A stretch of DNA of 64,000 bases, taken from positions 68,493-132,492 of the forward strand of contig NW_014577534.1 of assembly GCF_000485595.1 (NCBI RefSeq). The letters are read 5' to 3'. The notes beneath the pieces were generated by a model. That model made no database searches. It saw nothing but the letters and a program-made list of their open reading frames with translations, and was not told where the DNA came from. Shown here piece by piece: positions 1-58,376 of the stretch (positions are counted from its first letter, which is position 1; the number at the start of each line of letters is the position of its first letter). Position numbers and translations under genes: made by a program. The DNA is from Priapulus caudatus. Its lineage: Eukaryota > Priapulida > Priapulimorpha > Priapulimorphida > Priapulidae.

Positions 1-415
1 GCTTGTCAGCTGCGAATATAGGGGCTGCGAGCTATACGACAGTAGGGGGGCTCTTCTGCAGGTCATACATGTACTACTACATACAGAATCTCAATTAACA
101 TATTACATAACCCTCAGCACACAACAAAGAATAAAACACCGCTTCACATATGCACACTAATATTACTGTGAATCTCAATAACATATTACATAACTCTAGC
201 ACACACAAAAGAATTAAACACCCACTTCACATTATGCCACTACTATATCACAGTGTATCCAATAAACATATTACATAACTCTCAAGGCACACACAAAGAA
301 TAAACACCACTTTCCCCCACTCTATCCGGGTGTGCATATGGGTACGGCGGATAATCTTACACTCTGAGAAGTGCTGCCCTCAAGCGCAACTGTTTCTGCG
401 GCTAAACCCATTTCA
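1..415. repeat. Partial higher-order satellite unit
   Basis: Positions 1-85 carry a block (gcgaatata...gtacgacagta...ctcttctgcagg...catacatgtac) that recurs at 2964-3045 and 4526-4600. It is followed by about three tandem copies of a ~75-80 bp repeat containing aacatattacataactc and cacacacaaa (about 90-320). The closing block (gggtgtgcatatgggtacg...ctgcc) at about 322-410 recurs at 4661-4745. Copies differ mostly by single-base indels, which looks like unpolished long-read noise as much as real divergence. Confidence 0.8.
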
Positions 416-904
416 TTTCATTTTGCATCCACTTCTCCCCCCCAGCAGTAAGAAATAAGAACCTTTACAATTACAATACATGCATCCACCTTATACATTT
501 TTGTGTACATTTTAGGTCAATGATTCACTATAGCCTGTCCTACACGACAAAATTTAACTCGAGTTAAGCGTTAAGTGCAGTACCAGGCAAAGTCTAGCCT
601 TCATTCTTTCACTTTCTTCATTAATGCAGAGACAGTTGTTAGGGATAGACGTATCGCATCTTTAAGAGTATTCATGTAGAGAGGGTCATTGGTCTAAGCA
701 AGACATACATTTTAAAATATTAAAAGAGACTGCCCATCAGAAGATTTCTCTCGGTGGAAGAATTGTTAAGGTGTGCTTCATGATTTCCAACTTTAGGCGA
801 GCTATTGTCAGCAGTAATGCCTAGTGTCTGTAGTAAATGGCTCGCATTTTAGAAATAAAGATATACATAATTTGTATTGCAACTTGAGTCTTTGTAGCAT
901 TAAT
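416..904. other. Spacer between satellite blocks, no gene seen
   Basis: This stretch is mostly unique AT-rich sequence between two satellite blocks. I see no convincing ORF, splice-bounded exon, RNA gene or terminal inverted repeat in it. It is not repeated in the neighbouring satellite copies, so it may be an insertion or a truncated unit. Confidence 0.4.
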
Positions 905-1139
905 AATCTCAATAAACATATTACATAACTCCTGAGCACACAAAAGAATCAACACCACTTCACATATGCCACACTAATATCACGTTGAATCTCAATAAAC
1001 ATATTACACAACTCTGAAGCCACACAAAAGAATCAACTCCCCACCTCACATTATGCAACACTAATATCACGCGAATTCAATAAACATATTACATGAACTC
1101 CTCAGCACACACAAATTAATAAAACTACCCACTTCAATT
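905..1139. repeat. ~75-80 bp tandem repeat, about three copies
   Basis: Tandem copies of the aatctcaataaacatattac...cacacacaaaagaat...cacttcacatatgc...aatatcacg unit lie directly before the ACGC satellite. The same unit flanks the satellite at 90-320, 3041-3356 and 4602-4660, so it is a regular part of the composite array. Confidence 0.8.
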
Positions 1140-2963
1140 ATGGACGCAAGCGCACACGTACGCATTGAGACTGCACGCACACACAGCACGCACACATTGT
1201 AGTGCGCCATGTACGTGCACACGCACGCACCCATACACTGTGGACGGCACACGCAATGCACACACGCACGCATGCAACACGCGTGTACCTGTACAACCGC
1301 ACCATCACACGCACCGCATTGCACGCTATGTGTACGTACACACGCACGCACGACACGCACGCACATACGTGTACGTGCAACGAACGCACGCACGCACGCA
1401 CGCAGGCACATACCTGTACGTGCCAACGCACGCACGCATGCACGCATTGTACGTGCAACACGGCACGCGCACGTAATTACGTTTACGAATGCACGCACAG
1501 TACGATGCATACGCACCGCACGCAGCCACACCTAGCATGCAGCACGGGTACGTACACACGCACCCACGCAGCATTGCACGCACCGAGTACGTGCACACGC
1601 ACGCACGCACATGTACGTGCACACGCAGCGCAAACGTGCGTGCACAACCACGCACACACTGCACAATGCACGTACATTGTATGACAACACGCACACGCAC
1701 GCACACACGTGCCGTTTACACGCACGCACACACGCAGCATGCACGCAGTTACTACACGACGCAGGCACGCACGCACGCAAACTTGTCCGTGCAAACGGCA
1801 CGCACGCTGGCACGCATGCGTACGGTGCACACGCACGCCCCGCAGTACATACGCACGCACTGTACGCACCGATGATGTTACGACACCACGAAGCACACAC
1901 GATACGCATGCACGCACGGTGGAGTACACACGCACCACGCGCATGCACGCCGAGTACGTGCACACGCACGCACGCACACACGCACGCAACACTTGTTAGT
2001 CGCGCAGCATGTACGTGCCAACACGACATCGACTGCCACAGCCACACGCACGGCAGTGCACACACGGACCTGCAGCAGCCACGCACGCATAGCGCACGAG
2101 CACTACATGTATGAAACACGCACACGCACGCACAACGACGCTGACGTTTACACGCACGCGACACACGCACGCATGCACGCATGTGTACGTTACGCACGCA
2201 CGCAGCGCACGCAACGCACATACGTGTACGTGCAAACCGACGCAGTATGCACGCCATTGTACTTGCACACGCACGCCCGCACGTACATACGCACGCATGC
2301 ACGCGCCACTGTTACGTGCATACGCACGCACGCAAGCACAACACTACGGCATGCACGCCACGGCGGGTACGTACACATGCACCACACGCACGCATGCACG
2401 CACGAGTATCGTGCCACGCACGCACGCCACATGCTACGTGCACACGCACGCACACACGCTGGACGTGCAACCCCACGCACACACTCAGCGATGCACGTAC
2501 ATTTTGGTATTGACAACACGCACACGCACGCCACACACGTGCACGTTTTACAACGCACGCTACACAACGCACGCCATGCACGCATGTGTACGACACACAC
2601 GCACCGCACGCACGTCACATACGGTCAGTTGCAACGCAACGTCTACGCATGCACGCATGTGTACGTGAAAAACGCAACGCCGCATTACTACCAAGCATGA
2701 CGCACCTGACGTTGCAGTACGCACGCCACGGCAAGCACACACTACGATGACACACGGTACGTACACCACGCACCCACGCACGCATCACGACGAGTACGTG
2801 ACACGCCGCAAGCATCATGTACGTCACACTCACGCACACACGTGAAGTGCACACCCACGCAACACGCAGCATGCACGGTACATGTATGACACACGCACGC
2901 ACGCACGTACTTGTACGTGACAGCACGCACGCACACGTGGACGGCACACACGCAGCGCACGAC
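1140..2963. repeat. CpG-rich (ACGC)n satellite block A
   Basis: About 1.8 kb made of ACGC/ACAC tetramers punctuated by palindromic cores such as gtacgtgcac and acgtgtacgtgc. It is free of stop codons over long distances on both strands, which creates long spurious Arg/Cys/Val- or His/Thr/Arg-rich reading frames; these are low-complexity artefacts, not genes. CpG density is extreme, unlike the AT-rich gene introns nearby. Confidence 0.9.
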
Positions 2964-3356
2964 TATATATTGCAGCGCGAATATAGGGAGGTGTACGACA
3001 TAGGGGTCTTCTGCAGTATACAGTGTACTACATACATACATGAATCTCAATTAAAAATATTACATAACTCCTCAGCACACACAAAGATAAACACCGCTTC
3101 ACATATGCACCACGAGATTACGTGAATTTCTCATAACATATTACATATACTCCTGTGAGCACACACAAAAGAATCAATCACCAGTTCACTATGCACCACT
3201 AATATCACGGAATCTCACATAATACTATTACCAAACTCCTGAGCACACACAAAGAATCAACATTCAATTCAATATGCACCATGAATATCACGTGAATCTC
3301 AATAAAACATATTCATAAATCCTCAGCACACCAAAAGAATAAACACCCACTCACAT
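2964..3356. repeat. Satellite junction block plus ~4 copies of the ~75-80 bp repeat
   Basis: Block 2964-3040 (tatatattgcagcgcgaata...gtgtactacatacatacatg) is the boundary motif of the higher-order unit, also at 1-85 and 4516-4600. It is followed by about four tandem copies of the repeat with aacatatta...cacacacaaa. Together they separate satellite blocks A and B. Confidence 0.8.
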
Positions 3357-4525
3357 ATGGCACGCAATAGCGCACACGTAAGAGCATGCACTCCGCACGA
3401 CAACGCACGCACACATTGTAGTGTCACACGGCAATGCGCACATGAAACGGCATGCACACACGTGTACCCTGCACACGCACGACACCACACGCACGCATGC
3501 ACTTACATGTATGACACACGCACCACGACGCACACAGTGCACGTTTACACGCACGCACACACGCACGCATGCACGCATGTGTACGTACACACGCACGCAC
3601 GCACGCACGCACGCACATACGTGTACGTGCAAACGCACGCACGCATGCACGCATGTGTACGTGCACACGCACGCCCGCACGTACATACGCACGCATGCAC
3701 GCACGCAAGCACACACGTACGCATGCACGCACGGGTACGTACACACGCACCCACGCACGCATGCACGCACGAGTACGTGCACACGCACGCACGCACATGT
3801 ACGTGCACACGCACGCACACACGTGTACCTGCACACGCACGCATGCACGTACATGTATGACCACACGCACACGCACGCACACACGTGCACGTTTACACGC
3901 ACGCATGCACGCATGTGTACGTACACATGCACGCACGCACGCACATACGTGTACGTGCAAACGCACGCACGCATGCACGCATGTGTACGTGCACACGCAC
4001 GCCCGCACGTACATACGCACGCATGCACGCACCTGTACAAGCATACGCACGCACGCACGTACGCATGCACGCACAGGTACGTACACACGCACCCACGCAC
4101 GCATGCACGCACGAGTACGTGCGCACGCACGCACGCACACACGTGTACCTGCACACGCACGCATGCACGTACATGTATGACCACACGCACACGCACGCAC
4201 ACACGTGCACGTTTACACGCACGCACACACGCACGCATGCACGTACATGTATGACAACACGCACACGCACGCACACACGTGCACGTTTACACGCACGCAC
4301 ACACGCACGCATGTGTATGTACACACGCACATACGTGTACGTGCAAACGCACGCACGCATGCACGCATGTGTACGTACACACGCACGCACGCACGCACGC
4401 ACATACGTGTACGTGCAAACGCACGCACGCATGCACGCATGTGTACGTTCACATGCACGCACGCACGCACGCACTTGTACGTGCACACGCACACACGTGG
4501 ACGTGCACACCCACGCACGCATATA
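3357..4525. repeat. CpG-rich (ACGC)n satellite block B with ~330 bp periodicity
   Basis: The same ACGC satellite as block A, but cleaner. The marker catgtatgaccacacgcac (or a close variant) followed by gtgcacgtttacacgc recurs near 3509, 3852, 4172 and 4247. This gives spacings of about 343, 320 and 75 bases, so a ~330 bp higher-order unit sits on the tetramer background. Long open frames here are repeat artefacts. Confidence 0.85.
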
Positions 4526-4755
4526 TATTGTCAGCGCGAATATAGGTGGTGTACGACAGTAGGGGCTCTTCTGCAGGTCATACATGTACCTACATACATA
4601 CATGAATCTCAATAAACATATTACATAACTCCTCAGCACACACAAAAGAATAAACACCCACTCTATCCCGGGTGTGCATATGGGTACGCGGATAATCTTC
4701 ACCTCTGCAGATGTGCTGCCCTCCAGCGGCAACTGTTTCTAGCGGCTAACCCCAT
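4526..4755. repeat. Closing block of the composite satellite
   Basis: Carries the boundary motif (gcgaatataggtggtgtacg), one copy of the ~75-80 bp repeat and the terminal block (ctatcccgggtgtgcatatg through gtgctgccctccagcggcaac). It matches the order of elements at 1-410, so the array has a repeated composite structure. Confidence 0.8.
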
Positions 4756-5472
4756 TTGCTACTCCCAAGGCACCCTCCACCCCTGCCTGGAAAATGGGAG
4801 TGCCACTATGGATGTATATTTTGGTCTTGCGATAGTTTGCATTCAATAAAGGGGCCAATTTTGTCATATTATTGTGGTTTAAATGTGAATTTCTAGCTGG
4901 CCAGCTAAAGAATACAAGTTTATGTTGCAGGCTAGGGTAATTTTTTATTGTGCCACAGACTGCAGCGTTGCAGGCCACGATGTAAACGTTTGTCTCCGAT
5001 TCGTGTCATAGATTGTAGTATAGCCCTGTACCGGAAGCGAAGGGGCTACGCTGGTACAGCTATTTCTTCATCTGATCTGGATCTTTGGCAGTGGGATCAA
5101 GTCTGCCCCTCCCACAACGCTCACACTGCAGCACACACACACGTATATATATATAACAACATGGTGTCTAACTCGCCACCGAGTTTGGCCAACTCACTGT
5201 TTACAATCACCTCCAACTCTGGTGTTCCTGCAGATGTCACCACTTTCTAATGATTGTTAGAATCACTGATGACTTCTTAACCATCTACATTCTACACCCA
5301 CCATTTTTGAACAATCGGACTGCCAAAATGCATTCAAATCACTGGAAATCCTCAAATATTGGTGCAAAACGACTGCTCGAATGTTACACAGGCTGAGACA
5401 GGCACGGGCAACTGTTGGTGGCACACACAATTTCAATGCACGCACACCACTGTGCACAAACTTACACTACAG
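4756..5472. other. Non-coding spacer, no gene seen
   Basis: Unique sequence between the satellite and a small transposon. It has a short (TA)n/(CA)n tract near 5133-5154 and a segment at 5036-5065 (gaagcgaaggggctacg) that resembles the hairpin arms at 24385-24462. No exon with supporting splice sites was recognised. Confidence 0.35.
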
Positions 5473-5690
5473 CAGGGTTCTCCAAGAGCACCTATAGCCT
5501 GGCGGCCCGCCAGGCTATCGTCGAGCCCCGCCATCCTAAAATGCACCCGCCACTCTAAATATCATAGCCGCCATGCTAAATATCATAGCCCCTGGACCCC
5601 CCTAGCACGCAAACCGCCTTCGGCGATTTGCAACTAGGATCGTAAAGGCAGCACCCGCCATGCTATAACGAAAAAGCTTGGAGAACCTTG
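5473..5690. mobile_element. Small non-autonomous TIR element, 218 bp
   Basis: The ends are inverted repeats: CAGGGTTCTCCAAGA at the left, and the reverse complement of AGCTTGGAGAACCTTG at the right. Five bases, tacag, are duplicated directly outside both ends. The interior is rich in GCCGCCATGCTAAATATCATAG-like repeats and has no ORF. The TIR sequence resembles hAT-type ends, but a 5-bp duplication is not typical of hAT, so superfamily is uncertain. Confidence 0.65.
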
Positions 5691-6397
5691 TACAGAGAGA
5701 TATGATAGGTGGAAAAGCGTGAGTGCCAAATTCTCACAACACATCTTCACAGCGCAAATACACAAACAACCGCCTCCATATTGATATCTATAATGCGTAG
5801 CCGAATGTTCACTTGTTCAAATTATCGCCCTTGCCGATGGATAGATCATAGTTTACCTAGAAAAATATAGTATATTCCTGCAGAAAACTCCCCCTTCATG
5901 GCAATGTAAATGGGATCAACTGCTTGTTTATACATGAGTAATGGCGATGCATTGCATTCTGTGTTCAAGCTAATGATTATCATGCACACGGAAGCAAACT
6001 TGAACATACCTGCCTTTAACTCTTGGCCAGAACGATGTGTTATCCATCCAGGTTTCTTCCCAGGTATTTTAGAAGGCCTGTTGAGCAATCTCGCAGTTCA
6101 TCTCCGATTGCTAATTAGAGTCAATTACTTGTGTCGTAAGCGGCCCCAATACGCAGGTAAACTTTATTATTTTGGAAACATGTTCATGAAGTTGTAAAAA
6201 CAGTATGACTGTCTGGGAATTTGAAAAGGTAAAGACAGCTCGAAATTAATGCATGTCAATTAGGCAATTACGGCATCCCGGGGGATTAATAAAATAATGA
6301 GAGGTCGCAAATAAGGTTTAGCTTTAAAGGTATGTCGACCCCGACATGCATTAAAGACCTGAGGAGAACCCTGTGTCATAATGGTGCTATTTTTCAG
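5691..6397. other. Upstream region of the KAT7 gene; holds a dispersed repeat
   Basis: No convincing exon is visible, although the 5' coding exon(s) of the KAT7 gene should lie here or further upstream. Bases about 6225-6360 form a dispersed repeat with the motifs aaattaatgcatgtc and gaccccgacatgcattaaag. A diverged copy lies at about 52984-53092, upstream of the visible DNAJB exons. Confidence 0.4.
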
Positions 6398-17319
<10,922 letters not shown>

Positions 17320-17748
17320 ATAAATGAAGCTTGCTTAACTATATAATGTACAGATGGTAAAACAATCTAACAATTTTTAACTTGTAAATAGCAGGAGGAG
17401 TAAAGTGGGTGGCTTAATCTCTTACAAAAACCTTCATAATTTTGATAGCAATGACTGTGTAATATTTGTAGTGCAATATACAGTGATTAGACAGGTGAAG
17501 AATAAGAAATACTTATTAAACTCACATAATGCGTAAAAAACCACAATGCTCGAAGCATTCTGAACATGTTCAGTGTTGGCAAGACTTTTGTAATACTATT
17601 ATTGTACACCTATTATGGTGTGTGTTTCTAACTTCAAATTGGGAATGTAGTCTCGGAAAAATTCATGGGCCCTGGTGATCTGTGTATTGACAATTTTTTA
17701 ATGAAATACAAGACACAAGTTGCTCCCGCAGAAGTGAGACTTGGTTAA

Positions 17749-17754
17749 AATAAA
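17749..17754 (+). terminator. Candidate KAT7 polyadenylation signal
   Basis: AATAAA lies 430 bases after the stop codon and is followed within ~15 bases by GT-rich sequence (gtggtgtgtgtag), the usual layout of a cleavage/polyadenylation site. A second AATAAA overlaps the stop region at 17319-17324 but lacks a GT-rich downstream element. Confidence 0.4.
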
Positions 17755-18303
17755 ATCGTAATAGTGGTGTGTGTAGAGTCCGTTATAGACGTAGTGCATG
17801 TCTACAAGGAACATAAATTGATGTATGTAATGCTGTAAAACTTGCAGTGGTAATAATCTACCTATAATTGTGTAACGGTATATGTATTATAGTTTTCATA
17901 TAATGACTTGCAGTCAGTGAAATAGGTGTAAATGACTGACTAATTAGTTTTATTTTTTTATTTAAGCAAAGTTTTGTGGTTGTCATAGACTAGTATGTAC
18001 TTCTAATACAACTATTTCTTCTACCAACACCAATCAAAATTGAATTTGTAAGTAGAAATGACTTGGCACGTATTTTTCATGCAGCACTAATTTAGATAGT
18101 GACGGGTCATTTAATTAGGATTATGACAAATTCGTTGTTTTTTTATTTCACAATACTTCCATGTTTGGAGGCATAATGCAGAAAGCTCATCTGATATTAA
18201 CTTACATATAAGTATGAAATAAGTTTACAAATTCAATAAGGGCATTTGTTTTACACTATCAAGTTATTGCTGTCGTTATTTTAATAGCTTCCTTATTGTA
18301 CAG

Positions 18304-18348
18304 TGTGTGTGTGGTGGGTGGTGCGTGCGTGTACGTGCGTGCGCGCGC

Positions 18349-18388
<40 letters not shown>
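18304..18388. repeat. (TG)n/(GC)n microsatellite
   Basis: A tgtgtgtggtgggtggtgcg...gcgcgcgcgcgtgtgcgtgtg tract followed by pure (GT)n. The same tract recurs with different lengths at 21043, 21582 and 22101 in the duplicated units. Confidence 0.85.
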
Positions 18389-18390
<2 letters not shown>

Positions 18391-18516
18391 GTTATATCCA
18401 TAAGACGTCACTGCCTTTGTAAATTCTGTCAATTTGGATTGAAACGAATTAAAATAATAAATTCCAATAAATTTCAAGATCTTTCAAAGGTTTTGTTGCC
18501 ACATGTCATTGATACA

Positions 18517-18878
18517 TAATTTAATGATAGAAAGATGTTCAATAATGATGCATAGAAATTTAAAAAATAATGTAATCGAATCCATGTCGGATATAGCGAT
18601 TAAGCATAGCTATAAGCTATATATACGTACGCGTATATCTAATTCATATAACTATTAATAACGTCAAGAGTAGATAATAACACAAGTAGATAATAAGACA
18701 ATTGTGTTATTATCTACTCTTGACGTTATTAATAGTTATATGAATTAGATATACGCGTACGTATATATAGCTTATATATATATAGCTATGCTTAATCGCT
18801 ATATCCGACATGGATTCGATTACACTATTTTTTTAATTTCTATGCATCATTATTGAACATCTTTCTATCATTAAATTA
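18517..18878. repeat. Large inverted repeat (foldback) ending at the assembly gap
   Basis: Bases 18517-18664 are repeated in reverse complement at 18723-18878 with small differences, for example an extra ~8 bp in the tatagct stretch. The centre is the 58-bp palindrome at 18665-18722. The right arm runs directly into the run of Ns. A contig that folds back on itself and then stops is typical of a snap-back read or palindromic contig-end artefact, though a real inverted duplication is possible. Confidence 0.8.
18665..18722. mobile_element. Palindromic micro-element, 58 bp
   Basis: Starts CAAGAGTAGATAATAACACA and ends with the inverted TGTGTTATTATCTACTCTTG. The left flank ATAACGT (18658-18664) is the 7-bp target seen at the other copies. 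The right flank reads acgttat, the inverse, because the foldback starts here. The same 58-bp element is present at 22444-22501. Confidence 0.8.
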
Positions 18879-18888
18879 NNNNNNNNNN
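18879..18888. other. Assembly gap (10 N)
   Basis: Ten Ns join the foldback end to a second copy of sequence already present from 16149 onward. Ten is an arbitrary gap length, so the true distance is unknown or negative (overlap). Confidence 0.99.
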
Positions 18889-21397
18889 GAGTTAGTGAGT
18901 TTAACTCAGAGTTAGTCTTAACTCAGGGTTAAAGTTAATCCACGACTGTGGAACGTGGTCCTGTACTGTACTACAATTCCGAAACGTGTCTGGTCCCAAG
19001 GGTTTCGGATAATAGATTGTGTACTGTATTAATGTTTAATCTAAAAAAAAATAGTGGAAAGCTGAAATTCCCATTGCTTTTCAATTAGCATTTTGGTTCT
19101 TGTTCAGGTGTGACAAATTCAAAAAAGCATTGAGTAACCTGATACGATGTAATTTAGCCCCTGCATTGCATGTACCTATCAATGTGTAAATACATATTTG
19201 TATGGACATTATGAAAGATTGATCGCAATTTTATTATATCATAGATTTGAGTCATGCTACTGGAATCAATACCTATGACATCGTGAGCACATTCCAAGCT
19301 CTGGGTATGCTGAAGTATTGGAAAGGCAAACATCTGGTTCTTAAGCGACAGGTCAGTGGATTGATAATGTATATTGATAAAATTTGTACTTTACACTCAA
19401 GACCTCGACTCATGCACTCGATAACATGCTATAAACAGGCAAATTGAACTGTTCAAGAAACTGTCCAATGGAATGCAATGAAAATAAATTACATATTTGT
19501 TAAAAGTCAATATGCTATGTTAATTCATCTTTAAATCAGCTAATTGGGGTAGAGGTAAATAGCTGTAGGTCGGATAATATCAGGAGTCTATTGATTTAAT
19601 CCAAAGGCTGCTGATAGCATTTCTGCTGGTGCTGGATTCTTAACTGATCACTTGTAATAAATAAGCCAAAGCACCCATGTATAACACATGATCACAGGCA
19701 GTGTTATAGAGAAAAGGGGGGTAGGAAAGTGAGGGAGAGATATGGAGAATAAGAGACAGGGAGAATGGGCAAAAAGAGAGAGAGGGGGCAAGGGAGGGAG
19801 GGACCAAGCGAGCAATAATGAGGTCACTAAAGAGAAATTCCATGAACTATTCGAGACTTATGATTTGTTATCTGAAAATAAGAAGCCAGACTATTTACAT
19901 TGACATGCTGTAGATGATGTAATATTTGTGGCAATTTCTGCTCATTTCAGGATCTCATTGATGATCATATTGCAAAGCGAGCCAAGAGAGGACCTGACCA
20001 CAAAGTAATTGATGAAAATAGCCTCAAGTGGCGTCCCCCTGTGCAAGTGGACACCCGATAAATAAATTAAGCTTGCTTAACTATATAATGTACAGATGGT
20101 AAAACAATCTAACCATTTTTAACTTGTAAATAGCAGGAGGAGTAAAGTGGGTGCTTAATCTCTTACAAAAACCTTCATAATTTTGATAGCAATGACTGTG
20201 TAATATTTGTAGTGCAATATACAGTGATTAGACAGGTGAAGAATAAGAAATACTTATTAAACTCACATAATGCGTAAAAAACCACAATGCTCGAAGCATT
20301 CTGAACATGTTCAGTGTTGGCAAGACTTTTGTAATACTATTATTGTACACCTATTATGGTGTGTGTTTCTAACTTCAAATTGGGAATGTAGTCTCGGAAA
20401 AATTCATGGGCCCTGGTGATCTGTGTATTGACAATTTTTTAATGAAATACAAGACACAAGTTGCTCCCGCAGAAGTGAGACTTGGTTAAAATAAAATCGT
20501 AATAGTGGTGTGTGTAGAGTCCGTTATAGACGTAGTGCATGTCTACAAGGAACATAAATTGATGTATGTAATGCTGTAAAACTTGCAGTGGTAATAATCT
20601 ACCTATAATTGTGTAACGGTATATGTATTATAGTTTTCATATAATGACTTGCAGTCAGTGAAATAGGTGTAAATGACTGACTAATTAGTTTTATTTTTTT
20701 ATTTAAGCAAAGTTTTGTGGTTGTCATAGACTAGTATGTACTTCTAATACAACTATTTCTTCTACCAACACCAATCAAAATTGAATTTGTAAGTAGAAAT
20801 GACTTGGCACGTATTTTTCATGCAGCACTAATTTAGATAGTGACGGGTCATTTAATTAGGATTATGACAAATTCGTTGTTTTTTTATTTCACAATACTTC
20901 CATGTTTGGAGGCATAATGCAGAAAGCTCATCTGATATTAACTTACATATAAGTATGAAATAAGTTTACAAATTCAATAAGGGCATTTGTTTTACACTAT
21001 CAAGTTATTGCTGTCGTTATTTTAATAGCTTCCTTATTGTACAGTGTGTGTGTGTGGTGGGTGGTGCGTGCGTGTACGTGCGTGCGCGCGCGCGTGTGCG
21101 TGTGTGTGTGTGTGTGTGTGTAGATGTTATATCCATAAGACGTCACTGCCTTTGTAAATTCTGTCAATTTGGATTGAAACGAATTAAAATAATAAATTCC
21201 AATAAATTTCATGATCTTTCAAAGGTTTTGTTGCCACATGTCATTGATACATAATTTAAGGATAGAAAGATGTTCAATAATGATGCATAGAAATTTAAAA
21301 AATAATGTAATCGAATCCACGTCGGATATAGCGATCAAGCATAGCTATAAGCTATATACGTACGCGTATATCTAATTCATATAACTATTAATAACGT
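18889..21397. repeat. Near-identical second copy of 16149-18664
   Basis: From the gap onward the sequence repeats 16149-18664, starting at an offset of 2740 bases. Only scattered SNPs and microsatellite or homopolymer length changes are seen (for example ttgatttcatcc versus ttgatttaatcc, gggggcaaagggagg versus gggggcaagggaggg). This includes the end of the 15435 TIR element, the last two KAT7 exons and the 3' region. The divergence looks allelic, so a false duplication of two haplotypes across the gap is the simplest reading. Confidence 0.9.
19245..20061 (+). pseudogene. Duplicated last two KAT7 exons
   Basis: Exon copies at 19245-19351 and 19951-20061 are intact and encode the same C-terminal MYST residues as 16506-16612 and 17209-17319, including the TAA stop. 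There is no upstream MYST sequence after the gap, so this is not a second complete gene. It is best treated as an assembly duplicate of the KAT7 3' end, or as a real partial tandem duplication. Confidence 0.85.
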
Positions 21398-22615
21398 ATA
21401 GTGTATATTTTACTGCAATTCACGCGTCACGCCTCTGTACAAAGTACACCATGTTGGTCATTTACCAATCTCAGATTTCCGAAACAGTGCTATGTGTTCA
21501 GAGGGCATTTCAATAAGGGCATTTGTTTTACACTATCAAGTTATTGCTGTCGTTATTTTAATAGTTTCCTTATTGTACAGTGTGTGTGGTGGGGGGGGTG
21601 CGTGTGCGTGCGTGCGCGCGCGCGTGTGCGTGTGTGTGTAGATGTTATATCCATAAGACGTTACTGCCTTTGTAAATTCTGTCAATTTGGATTGAAACGA
21701 ATTAAAATAATAAATTCCAATAAATTTCAAGATCTTTCAAAGGTTTTGTTGCCACATGTCATTGATACATAATTTAATGATAGAAAGATGTTCAATAATG
21801 ATGCATAGAAATTTAAAAAATAATGTAATCGAATCCATGTCGGATATAGCGATTAAGCATAGCTATAAGCTATATATACGTACGCGTATATCTAATTCAT
21901 ATAACTATTAATAACGTATAGTGTATATTTTACTGCAATTCATGCGTCACGCCTCTGTACAAAGTACACCATGTTGGTCATTTACCAATCTCAGATTTCC
22001 GAAACAGTGCTATGTGTTCAGAGGGCATTTCAATAAGGGCATTTGTTTTACACTATCAAGTTATTTCTGTCGTTATTTTAATAGCTTCCTTATTGTACAG
22101 TGTGTGCGTGCGTGTACGTGCGTGTGCGCGCGCGCGTGTGCGTGTGTGTGTGTGCATGTGTGTAGATGTTATATCCATAAGACGTCACTGCCTTTGTAAA
22201 TTCTGTCAATTTGGATTGAAACGAATTAAAATAATAAATTCCAATAAATTTCAAGATCTTTCAAAGGTTTTGTTGCCACATGTCATTGATACATAATTTA
22301 AGGATAGAAATTAAGATGTTCAATAATGATGCATAGAAATTTAAAAAATAATGTAATCGAATCCACGTCGGATATAGCGATCAAGCATAGCTATAAGCTA
22401 TATACGTACGCGTATATCTAATTCATATAACTATTAATAACGTCAAGAGTAGATAATAACACAAGTAGATAATAAGACAATTGTGTTATTATCTACTCTT
22501 GATAACGTATAGTGTATATTTTACTGCAATTCACGCGTCACGCCTCTGTACAAAGTACACCATATGGTAATTTACCAATCTCAGATTTCCGAAACAGTGC
22601 TATGTGTTCCACGAA
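20973..22615. repeat. ~520 bp tandem repeat, about three units
   Basis: The unit runs from atagtgtatattttactgca through the gggcatttgttttacactat segment and a (GT)n/(GC)n microsatellite to ctattaataacgt. Units are 21398-21917 and 21918-22508, with a partial unit 20973-21397 before and a partial unit 22509-22615 after. The 22444-22501 micro-element makes the second full unit longer. Units also differ in microsatellite length. No exons are inside. Confidence 0.9.
22444..22501. mobile_element. Palindromic micro-element, 58 bp, with perfect 7-bp target duplication
   Basis: CAAGAGTAGATAATAACACA...TGTGTTATTATCTACTCTTG is flanked by ATAACGT on both sides (22437-22443 and 22502-22508). Sister tandem units carry a single, uninterrupted ATAACGT at 21391-21397 and 21911-21917, so the empty sites are visible and the insertion with duplication is directly documented. 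Confidence 0.92.
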
Positions 22616-24094
22616 TCACCAGATAGAACTAAAAAACGTGTCTACGTCTACGTGTGAATATTCATGGTACCATGGTTACAGTACCAGGTGTTTGTAGAGA
22701 TTATCACGTCATGTTCCCCTGATAAGTGGCGTCTATGGCACGTTCCATATGTTGCCGTGAAGTGAACGACGAGGGGTGACACGTTGTTAGGTAGTTGATT
22801 TACGTAATAGAAGTTCAACACAGCGAAATATTGACGAATAGAGAAGCTGACTTAGCTGAGAATGTATATATAACGTGAAGCGCGTGCATTTTCAAGTGCT
22901 TAGAATATAGCATATGCATAACTATTAGATGGGAATCTTGATATATCGTTCTATTAAAATACAGCTATTTAAATACAGCTTATACACAAGAAATCCGCAT
23001 GTACGCTTTGGATTCAATATAAAAAGTAGTCGCGCGGAGAAAAGCCACGCTTAATTGGTACGAAAATAGAGGTCAAGGATGAGGCATTGGTGCAAAGCAA
23101 AGTTCGTCGAAGGGAAGATTTAAAATATTTTTGGAGGATGCACGTTGTGGTTCCAACGACAAATATATGCTCCGGAAAATCATCTCAACTGCGGAAATTA
23201 CCATGGCCATGTTGGCAATAATCCTGACACAGCGCAAAGAAGTCATTTCGAAACTTCAACGTTTGGAAAATTCGTGTCACTCTAGTTTTCGACAGTGTTG
23301 TAGTGGTAAATTATTTTTTGGGTATACTCCCTTATACTGATAGCTCAATCCTCAAAGCAACAAGCCAACTATTTTTTTTAAGTATACGGCGTATACATAA
23401 GTATACCCTCCACTACATCACTGAGATAGTACCAGGGTACGTTCCGGTATACCTGACCGTACCCAGGGTACGTTCCGGCAGTAGGTACCCTTGGGGACAT
23501 AGACCCTCTCAGCATTAGTAAAAGCTCTGGTAAAAGGATCGTATATTTGAGAGGTAAAAGTTTATTTTCGGTACACGGTATTGATCTATCCAATAGATAT
23601 AGCTAGAAATCGGGAAATTCCAGATAAAAACCGCGATCCGGGAATAGAATTAAGTCACCGCGGGACACGGGAAAGGATCCGAAACTATTTTATTTAACAG
23701 AGAACCGGGAAATGGCACCACGGAGAAACCCCCTCCCCCTTCCACACGCGCACACACACACGCGCGCACGCACGCACGCAGGCGCGCACGCACCCCACGC
23801 ACGCCCGTCCTCGTTCTCCACGATTGCATTGTTTGCACAAAATTCTTCCTCCACTCCCCCTTCGCATACATAAGTGGTATCGTCCAGCCTCGTTTTGGCG
23901 CAAAGAGCAAAAGCTCGGCGCGAGCTTATCTTTCGCTCATTACAACTTTAGTAGGCTACCGATTTGTCTTCCATTCTAGGTCTATTTATTTAGGTTTTAT
24001 ATTGGAAACAATACATTGGAACTCAACTCCGGTGGCTGCCCCAAGCAGTAGAAACCAATACATCTTGTATCAAATACGCAGCGAAACCTACAAA
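22616..24094. other. Intergenic and presumptive GFPT upstream region
   Basis: Between the tandem repeat and the GFPT start codon there is no convincing gene. A low-complexity (GCAC/GCGC)n stretch lies at about 23748-23812. The last ~500 bases before the ATG are more GC-rich and probably contain the GFPT promoter and 5' UTR, but no TATA box or defined motif could be assigned. Short open frames here show no recognisable protein. Confidence 0.4.
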
Positions 24095-44276
<20,182 letters not shown>

Positions 44277-44753
44277 AACATTAAACATTTAGAAGAGGTT
44301 AGGTGGGCCAATAGTATAAGAAAAGCAGGGTATCAACTGCCATGTACAGTGATAAATTTTCAAGGTTATTTTTTGGAAGTATTTTGTTATTTATATTTAA
44401 AAATCATGTGAAATAATTTGGTTGTTAGGTGGTACGAAATTAGGCTTCTTCGTCCAATTCCTGTTAGTAGAGTGAAAAACAGAATTCTCCAATAATCTCT
44501 TCTGTAGCAAAAATGTAGCTAAACAGAGGTCAAGGAGACATAGGCCTTATCTGCTATAATAACTGTAACAGTAAGCATAGTAGGTATCTGTAGCAAAAGT
44601 TACAAATTACATTTACGAGTTTGTAGACGGCATAATAATAACAACATTCCAATTATCGTTTTACAGCTTTATTCCAGTTCACCGACAGTGTACATTTGGA
44701 TTACTCATTTAAACATGTTGTGATTATATGGTGGTATGGACGATTCATATAAT

Positions 44754-44795
44754 CATAGATATATATACCAAAATTGGTTGGTATATATATCTATG
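44754..44795. mobile_element. Palindromic micro-element, 42 bp
   Basis: CATAGATATATATACCAAAA followed by TTGGTTGGTATATATATCTATG is a near-perfect palindrome flanked by perfect 7-bp direct repeats ATATAAT (44747-44753, 44796-44802). Its ends (CATAGAT) differ from the CAGGAG-type ends but keep the terminal CA...TG. Confidence 0.8.
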
Positions 44796-45347
44796 ATATA
44801 ATATACACACTACACACAATATGAGCTGGCCCACGTTTCATCTGAAGTAGTAATCACTGTGCAGAATGATTACAATAATTATACATAGATCAGATTGTTT
44901 CTTTCAACAGCATGTTAGCTATTAACTTTGAAAAGCAGAAGGACAATCAAGCATAAGACAGATCTGTGGCACTTATGTATGACTGGACGTTTGAATGCAG
45001 TTGCAGTGTATAATCAAATATGTTTTTGTTAGTTCAAAGAAGTGCACAATGTAGAGAAATACATCCAAAGTGCCTTAATTAATATAATATATATATATCT
45101 CTATTGTTGTCATTTATTTAAATATTTTTGACTTATTCTGGGCACAGGCTATATACCGTTTTAATGCCTTTTACTACTAGCATCCGTTTAACCAGCAACA
45201 GAATAATCATGCCTTTGACAGTGCGTTTATTATAGTGGTAGGGACTTCTTACTATGGGTGGTATTCCTTATACATTAATTCCGTTTCCAGCACTTTAACG
45301 TAGCAGGTTCATGTACAACTTTTCTGATATACACACACATATATAAT

Positions 45348-45377
45348 CAGGAGTGTATCAATATTGATACACTCCTG
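45348..45377. mobile_element. Palindromic micro-element, 30 bp (smallest seen)
   Basis: CAGGAGTGTATCAAT followed by ATTGATACACTCCTG is a perfect 15+15 palindrome flanked by perfect 7-bp direct repeats ATATAAT (45341-45347, 45378-45384). Confidence 0.9.
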
Positions 45378-45788
45378 ATATAATGTGCATGTAGCTTGGT
45401 AGTCGTAGATGAAGAGTGGCAGTGTATATATCGTATACCAATTATGACCAATATATTCTTGTACAGAACCTGGGATGTTATGTAAATTAATGTATTATAA
45501 AACGTTAAATTGTTGGCAAATGTGAGTGCTATTGAGTGAAGGCATTAATAGTAATTTATGTGTTAAATGGTTGTTACCAAAATTATACTTGCATTGGGGT
45601 ATAACATTCTGAGTGTGATCAAGTTGTAAATGTTGTTTCAATGGGTAGCAATTCCCATGGGTTTAGCCCAAAATGAGTTGGTTGTAACTACTACTAATTG
45701 TAAAATTGCAAATTAATGAAATTACAGAATGTGATGCTTGTGCCATAATTATTAATCATATTATTATAATTATTAATCCCGTTTTCAA

Positions 45789-46261: not shown

Positions 46262-46368
46262 ATTAGGAGTGTTCACAACTTTGATATCATTAATGATTAA
46301 TGATTGATAATCCTAACCCTAACCCTAACCTAAATGACATTAAACCACAAACTAATATATGACCATGA

Positions 46369-46403
<35 letters not shown>

Positions 46404-46440
46404 GACCATTAATGACATTAAAGTTGGGAACACTCCTAAT
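46262..46440. mobile_element. Palindromic element with telomere-like core
   Basis: The left arm attaggagtgttcacaactttgatatcattaatg and the right arm cattaatgacattaaagttgggaacactcctaat are inverted repeats. Between them are CCTAACCCTAACCCTAACCT (46312-46331), i.e. (TTAGGG)n on the other strand, and a (TA)n run (46370-46400). The tip taggagtgtt resembles the micro-element ends, but no 7-bp direct repeat flanks it. Confidence 0.7.
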
Positions 46441-57769: not shown

Positions 57770-58376
57770 CAGGGCTTGAATTAACGCGGACGGCACGATG
57801 GCAATTGCCGTCGGTGCCCTTATGGCAATCGGGCCGTACTGGCCCCTGAAAATCGCAACTCGCGACGGCAGTCCTCCTTGCGCCTTTTGTGTAATTGGCC
57901 GTCGTGCGCTTTTAATCTACTGCCCTAGTTTCGTTTTTTAGTCGAAATCAAAGCATAACCTGCGCGTGCGTGCTGTAGTTGGCATGATGAGCTTTAAAAC
58001 CGATAGTCGCAGGGGGAATAATAACTAGCATTGGATAATTATTCACTCGCTGAGAGCGGGCCATGTAAAATTTGCTTGTTACTGTACTTCCATTAGCAGA
58101 GGGGGGGTACAGGGTCGGTGTTACGGTGTAAGCTTACATGGGGCATATTGTTTTCGTAGCATTTAAAAGCAAGACGATGTTGATGTAGCTAATTTGTTAT
58201 GAGTTTTTCCTTTATTTTTACACAATGTGGCCTTGGTGCCCTTCTCAAAATTTTGAGAGTTGCCTTGGTGCCTTTTAAATTGCCTCTGTGCGCCTCCTTT
58301 TAGAGAAAATTCAAGGCGATTTCTCACATGCCCTAAAAATTGGGCCTTGCCCTTCTCGTGCGTTAATCGAGCCCTG
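57770..58376. mobile_element. hAT-like MITE, 607 bp
   Basis: The left end CAGGGCTTGAATTAACGCGG and the reverse complement of the right end (CAGGGCTCGATTAACGCACG) are clear TIRs of the hAT CAGGG type. The flanks ttcaggt (left) and ttcagggt (right) look like an 8-bp duplication with one indel. The interior repeats short gcccttctc/gtgcctttt modules (gccttggtgccctt). No ORF. Confidence 0.75.

Follow-up and report, generated by a model that had tools for sequence, protein, structure and literature searches.

A 64,000-nucleotide stretch of the genome of the priapulid Priapulus caudatus (assembly GCF_000485595.1, contig NW_014577534.1, positions 68,493 to 132,492; the whole of it is called the window here) holds a series of palindromes of 30–83 bp bordered by direct repeats of 7 bp. 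We read these micro-palindromes as P-superfamily-type excision scars, cut about 20 nt inside the departed element, and put the probability of this reading at roughly 0.8. In the sequence of events that we propose, a DNA transposon would insert into an AT-rich target and duplicate 7 bp, a step for which empty paralogous sites are present at two loci. On later excision, one strand would be cut at each border of the element, the complementary strand some 20 nt further in, and both donor ends would keep a tail consisting of the first ~20 nt of the terminal repeat. End joining would then fill or trim the identical tails and join them, often with filler, and the product would read target duplication, tail, filler, inverted tail, target duplication, which is the anatomy seen. 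The inside cut and the ~20-nt tail are proposed because parent sequence is retained up to a ceiling of 20–21 nt, and end-joining repair because the centres are diverse. The parents would be elements with long terminal repeats, as found for one family, and their transposase would most likely belong to the P superfamily; the P transposase of Drosophila produces breaks of this type, with a 17-nt tail.

The palindromes were described in an original prediction made from the window sequence, and all eight are present where it placed them. Its flanking 7-mers hold at seven sites, six of them with perfect repeats (22444, 26380, 29619, 30894, 44754, and 45348) and 30694 with one mismatch; the eighth, at 18665, is not independent. 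The CA...TG tips that it assigned to the family occur at nearly all sites, and at both ends in six of the seven independent ones, although its list of tip sequences was loose: 44754 has CATAGA, and 30894 has TAGGAG/CAGGGG, starting with TA on one side. No strand is assigned to any of the palindromes. The 58-bp palindrome at 22444–22501 (22437–22508 with its duplication, ATAACGT at 22437–22443 and 22502–22508) has exact arms of 21 nt and a 12-nt copy of the arm in its centre. The 35-bp scar at 26380–26414 (26373–26421; ATAATAT) has exact arms of 15 nt around CCTCT, and the 55-bp scar at 29619–29673 (29612–29680; ATTATAT) has exact arms of only 8 nt (CAGAAGTA) followed by an indel. Exact arms of 18 nt occur both in the 41-bp scar at 30694–30734 (30687–30741; ATAACAT/ATAGCAT), with centre AATTA, and in the 42-bp scar at 44754–44795 (44747–44802; ATATAAT), with centre AATTGG. 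The 83-bp palindrome at 30894–30976 (30887–30983; ATAACGT) has arms of 31 bp at 87 percent identity, and the 30-bp palindrome at 45348–45377 (45341–45384; ATATAAT) is perfect and has no centre. At 16835–16881 and 19574–19620, the order ATAATAT, CAGGAG...CTGCTG (about 33 bp), ATAGCAT may represent an old decayed scar, which we left uncounted.

The palindrome at 18665–18722, originally listed among the eight, is not an independent insertion: it is the same 58 bp as that at 22444 and lies within a duplicated stretch: 16149–18675 is 98.9 percent identical to 18889–21408, across a gap of 10 N at 18879. It is flanked by ATAACGT on the left and by the reverse complement of ATAACGT on the right, and this fold-back of its own left flank continues to the gap (18658–18878 in all). 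Most simply, the fold-back is an assembly artefact at a palindrome beside a gap. The two 2.5-kb stretches flanking the gap (16149–21408) resemble two haplotypes or a recent duplication set in tandem.

The prediction that the window sites arose by DNA transposition, with 7 bp of target duplicated, is borne out by empty paralogous sites at two loci. The 22444 locus belongs to a tandem set of several paralogues; c1 and c2 in this set lack the palindrome and align with a single ATAACGT each, at 21391–21397 and 21911–21917 on the forward strand. For the 30694 scar, a related stretch aligns with a single ATAGCAT at 30302–30308, also on the forward strand. Because these empty paralogues hold one 7-mer, true insertions occurred at 22444 and 30694. 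Across 30150–31010 there are three related stretches, one empty and two carrying different palindromes (30694 and 30894) at about the same place, which suggests that the same target may have been hit twice.

Chance palindromes were considered and are ruled out by a strict palindrome test together with trials of 7-mer recurrence. In the strict test, which covered 5000–55800 and demanded that the direct repeat abut the palindrome, 79 palindromes were found, five with a 7-bp repeat, one with 5 bp, five with 4 bp (all in one AT microsatellite), and 68 with none; 30694 and 30894 are missing from the five because of a mismatch in repeat or tip. Among 514 palindromes in 30 simulated sequences, none had an abutting repeat of at least 6 bp. 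With the left flank displaced, a repeat of at least 7 bp arose in 22 of 1580 comparisons, and 61 of 162,601 trials had an AT-rich 7-mer recurring at the corresponding distance. Exact 7-bp repeats gave six hits (five strong) at the true offset versus one to six (zero to two strong) at ten displaced offsets. When one mismatch was allowed, there was no separation, since displaced offsets scored as high (5–20 hits, 1–7 strong) as the true offset (15 hits, 7 strong). The tip pattern alone was not clearly enriched in the window (37 occurrences versus 27 expected, with 6 of 100 shuffles reaching as high a count).

The sites belong to a large class. We searched the P. caudatus assembly (385,217,808 bases, 2952 contigs) for ATAATAT-CARRAG-N(10–40)-CTYYTG-ATAATAT and found 566 matches (275 forward and 291 reverse), versus 0 + 0 for a control consisting of the pattern read backwards. 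Among the 100 of these that were listed, 98 are distinct, having arms in common and centres specific to the locus. Of the two repeated pairs, one is local (839 bp apart), and the other is an identical 38-bp palindrome on contigs C25 and C56. Exact arms reach 20 nt in 11 of the listed matches and 21 nt in four; none is longer, the pattern having permitted 26. Seven distinct listed scars start with CAGGAGTTAATA; their arm is CAGGAGTTAATAAAGACAAA or a variant of it, and their centres include none, G, CG, GAC, and AGA. Conservation in this family is 86–100 percent at positions 13–20 and 36 percent at position 21. In five other arm families with at least 10 ends, it drops below 70 percent somewhere at positions 14–19, partly because sister variants were pooled.

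An intact element of 775 bp (locus L035, 14–788; contig C2, 1478814–1479588) was located by way of unpaired arms at fetched loci. Its tip matches those of the scars, its termini are CA...TG, and it is bordered by an exact 7-bp duplication, ATTTCAT. The terminal repeats are about 300 bp in length at 90 percent identity, the end reading CAGGAGTAGATAATAGGGAA then GGAGTGTGACATC, and the element is too short to encode a transposase. A 33-nt probe from this end had 624 matches in the genome with up to three mismatches (304 + 320), versus 0 + 0 for the control. From 100 listed places, 20 facing end pairs were fetched, 18 of them 474–813 bp in length and two of 9.2 and 9.5 kb. We scored scar ends against the 775-bp parent where the first 14 nt agreed with at most one mismatch, which gave 40 ends among the listed set. 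Parent sequence is kept for 20 nt in ten of these, 21 nt in one, 19 nt in four, and 17 nt in one, and none of the 40 retains more than 21 nt. Measured by this parent, 19 listed scars comprise four blunt joins and 15 with filler. A staggered excision is thus indicated by anatomy alone, in the ceiling of 20–21 nt in listed scars versus a parent terminal repeat of 300 bp.

The original prediction suggested that the palindromes could be mobile hairpin elements of an undescribed class, and a form of this idea is the strongest competitor of the excision-scar reading, though an improbable one: hairpins of 30–83 bp, or micro-MITEs (from miniature inverted-repeat transposable elements, MITEs), would transpose as units by means of a transposase that duplicates 7 bp. 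The precise 7-bp duplications, the empty sites, and the hundreds of copies would all suit such elements, as would the identical 38-bp palindrome on both C25 and C56 and the arms of 30894, which exceed what is expected of a scar. Intact relatives with mainly 8-bp duplications, described below, would likewise set two populations apart. However, a MITE family is expected to share its interior, and the listed copies are nearly all distinct, with centres that vary even within arm families and with one of the two repeated pairs being local. The first 25 nt of the 22444 palindrome occur only twice in 385 Mb, both times in the window copies. Exact arms of the listed copies extend no further than 20–21 nt, and those of one family coincide with the opening bases of a longer element's terminus. 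Moreover, P and hAT transposases require more than 15 bp of end sequence. The reading as an undescribed class of mobile hairpin elements is therefore not supported.

A hAT-type element with 7-bp duplications, of which the palindromes would be scars or remnants, seems to us very unlikely. The CA...TG tips and a target bias toward T at the second and A at the second-last position resemble hAT, and five of the window's seven targets follow nTnnnAn, but hAT excision leaves small changes to the duplication and not 15–20 nt of element. An example command in a Repbase paper pulls hAT families with 7-bp target duplications (PMC4455052), whereas retention of long tails is documented for P (PMC2895639, PMC10983969). 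Equally hard to credit is a palindromic parent of ~40 bp, made of two abutting 20-nt arms, that inserted many times and whose centres were later altered by hairpin cleavage or replication slippage: palindromes are unstable at their centres and perfect 40-bp forms without a centre exist (e.g., CAGGAGTTAATAAAGACAAATTTGTCTTTATTAACTCCTG), but such a parent leaves unexplained both filler of up to 22 nt and the identity of an arm with the 20 nt that open a long intact element, and the perfect 40-bp forms are unrepeated among the 100 listed matches.

The P. caudatus genome contains P-type transposase sequences. The P-type RNase H domain PF21787 has 64 matches in it and none in 14 control genomes, and one 827-amino acid frame has five P/THAP9 domains: the P helix-turn-helix, both RNase H parts, the GTP-binding insertion, and the THAP9 C-terminal domain. 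P-superfamily elements have duplications of 7 or 8 bp; the window sites have 7 bp, and 21 intact end pairs include three with exactly 7 bp and 13 with exactly 8 bp. CA...TG termini, found at most window sites and in the intact element, also occur in P and in zebrafish Pdre2 (PMC10983969, PMC2895639). Membership of the transposase in the P superfamily is likely and not established, because no transposase was found inside these ends at ten transposase loci and two 9-kb end pairs. At two loci, L048 (C1102, about 1066–8758) and L047 (C559), P-type RNase H frames stand beside frames with an apparent Pif1-type helicase motif identified by eye. The L048 frames are enclosed by inverted repeats of 21 bp or more (AATTAACAGTTCCCACACGTA), about 7.7 kb apart, and this locus may be a large P-like element that includes a helicase.

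Several observations weigh against the excision-scar reading, and the first of these concern the transposase. CARRAG ends were not found at ten transposase loci, each of up to 8.9 kb and some cut by contig ends or N, where the duplication test was for 7 bp only and inverted repeats across the core were also sought. Comparison of the two 9-kb end pairs with four P-type frames gave no convincing match (best E 0.19). The 9.2-kb pair (L051; C185, 12401–21625) has an exact 8-bp duplication and more copies of the end inside.

Duplication length is a second point of tension. Among the 21 intact end pairs, the 13 with an exact 8-bp duplication include four in TA repeats, where the length is ambiguous; beside the three with 7 bp, one has 10 bp in a TA repeat and four have no exact duplication, although one of these four shows 8 bp if a mismatch is allowed. 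In a scan of 42 scars under a strict tip rule, which omits window sites 29619, 30894, and 44754, the duplication is exactly 7 bp in 31, though many were picked by the 7-bp pattern. Among the 18 scars not central to their fetched locus, eight have exactly 7 bp (two of them, in L013 and L022, themselves belong to pattern matches) and five have 7 bp with one mismatch (two of them, in L016 and L017, probably represent a single site copied); the others comprise one with 8 bp and one mismatch, three with none, and the fold-back copy. Overall, the scars mostly have 7 bp, but one with the tip of the parent family has 8 bp and a mismatch. Either two transposases of different spacing act on ends that resemble each other, or the populations of scars and of intact copies are in part distinct.

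The remaining points concern the scars themselves. The sequence comparison rests on 100 of the 566 pattern matches. Of the 40 scored ends, 24 stop matching the parent at 14–16 nt, and these are no proof of trimming because most look like sister variants of the repeat. Templated filler is clear in only one window site, 22444 (12 nt). The arms of the 30894 palindrome are too long for a 20-nt tail, and a small element would suit it better than a scar. The window scars (30, 35, 41, 42, 55, 58, and 83 bp) are somewhat longer than the 58 fly P junctions of at least 24 bp counted from PMC2895639 (Mann-Whitney P 0.012), and the window tips resemble the tip of fly P weakly (of ten shuffle fractions, the lowest was 0.042).

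Some scars occur in chains. On contig C4 (L022, 1501–1661), three scars of 51, 39, and 43 bp stand head to tail with ATATTAT common between neighbours; on C1 (L005, 1478–1563), one scar is nested within another; and in two more chains, on C20 and C60, pattern matches overlap by one 7-mer. It seems that the duplicated target left after an event gets hit again. On balance we lean toward the view that a genome outside the drosophilids carries hundreds, perhaps thousands, of standing P-type scars with a cut at ~20 nt instead of 17 nt, and that retargeted duplications stack head to tail and nest because the intact duplicated target left behind is again a preferred target. In the open literature, we found no published account of such palindromes as genomic excision scars.

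As for the setting, the window is nuclear DNA of an animal. Exons of a glutamine-fructose-6-phosphate transaminase gene (GFPT) span 31268 to 44273, with no window scar within those listed, and a MYST acetyltransferase has exons at around 9.8–15.4 kb. The joined exons are 95 percent identical to the closest protein. The window has other repeats as well. Inverted-repeat elements at 15228–16281 and 41774–41977 are flanked by TACAGTA/TACTGTA and TACTGTA/TACAGTA, respectively, and we take them to be compatible with TA-duplicating (mariner/pogo-type) non-autonomous elements. A 607-bp element at 57770–58376, with ends CAGGGCTTGAATTAAC/CAGGGCTCGATTAACG and an imperfect duplication, is presumably hAT-like. 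Further inverted-repeat elements, at 46262–46440, 32486–32861, 9064–9201, and 24589–25112, have no visible 7-bp duplication in the flanks inspected. GC-rich tandem arrays with CACG-type and 83–87-bp units occupy 1–4700.

P-element footprints are known from fly crosses, and here comparable junctions are numerous in the genome of a wild animal. If our reading is right, repeat annotation should class such micro-palindromes as scars and not as MITE families. The scars would reveal the transposase's cut position, its target, and the end-joining habits of the host straight from sequence, and one genome would provide a ready-made inventory of how end joining turns out in an animal that lacks laboratory genetics. 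Scar chains would show repeated hits on one target.

Among known systems, the Priapulus palindromes resemble MITEs in being short, non-coding, inverted repeats with a precise duplication and a high copy number. Unlike MITEs, they have no common centre, and six of the seven window sites are only 30–58 bp in length; it is the parents of 474–813 bp that are MITE-like. For hAT, 8-bp duplications would be expected; the window sites have 7 bp, and most intact relatives examined have 8 bp. Dada elements are similar in having 6- or 7-bp duplications but differ in that many families target multicopy RNA genes (PMC8869645); the window has no tRNA and no Rfam match.

The 7-bp duplication had been judged not to match the common values, a view that overlooks Galileo, a member of the P superfamily with 7-bp and occasionally 8-bp duplications (PMC4168063). 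Galileo also has a palindromic AT-rich target and long terminal repeats (PMC4168063, PMC2775673). The target is palindromic in both, GTANTAC in Galileo and ATAATAT, ATAACGT, and similar sequences in Priapulus, and the likeness extends to duplication length, long terminal repeats, and abundant non-autonomous copies. Excision scars are unmentioned for Galileo in the available portions of PMC4168063 and PMC2775673.

The closest comparison is with Drosophila P, whose excision leaves non-complementary 17-nt 3' tails at the donor ends (PMC2895639, PMC10983969). In fly junctions formed by end joining, a tail and an inverted tail, with filler or microhomology between them, lie between the two copies of the target duplication (PMC2895639). 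We counted 67 such junctions with both duplications kept from Tables 1 and 2 of that paper, omitting Table 3 in full and any rows in which microhomology was long or duplications were lost; their lengths range from 7 to 78 bp, with a median of 30 bp. In the P{wa} assay (PMC2895639), the duplication is 8 bp, the tail is 17 nt, and the junctions come from laboratory repair mutants; the Priapulus scars have 7 bp and a tail of about 20 nt and stand in the genome by the hundreds. The tail ends in ...CATA in fly P and would end in ...GGAA in Priapulus. Past the tail, the fly P element continues with AGG and the Priapulus element with GG. The commonest fly junction length, 30 bp, is that of window palindrome 45348. 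Like the window scars, the P{wa} junctions (PMC2895639) have target duplications around tails of terminal repeat, which in the fly amount to at most 17 nt from each end, joined bluntly, by microhomology, or through filler.

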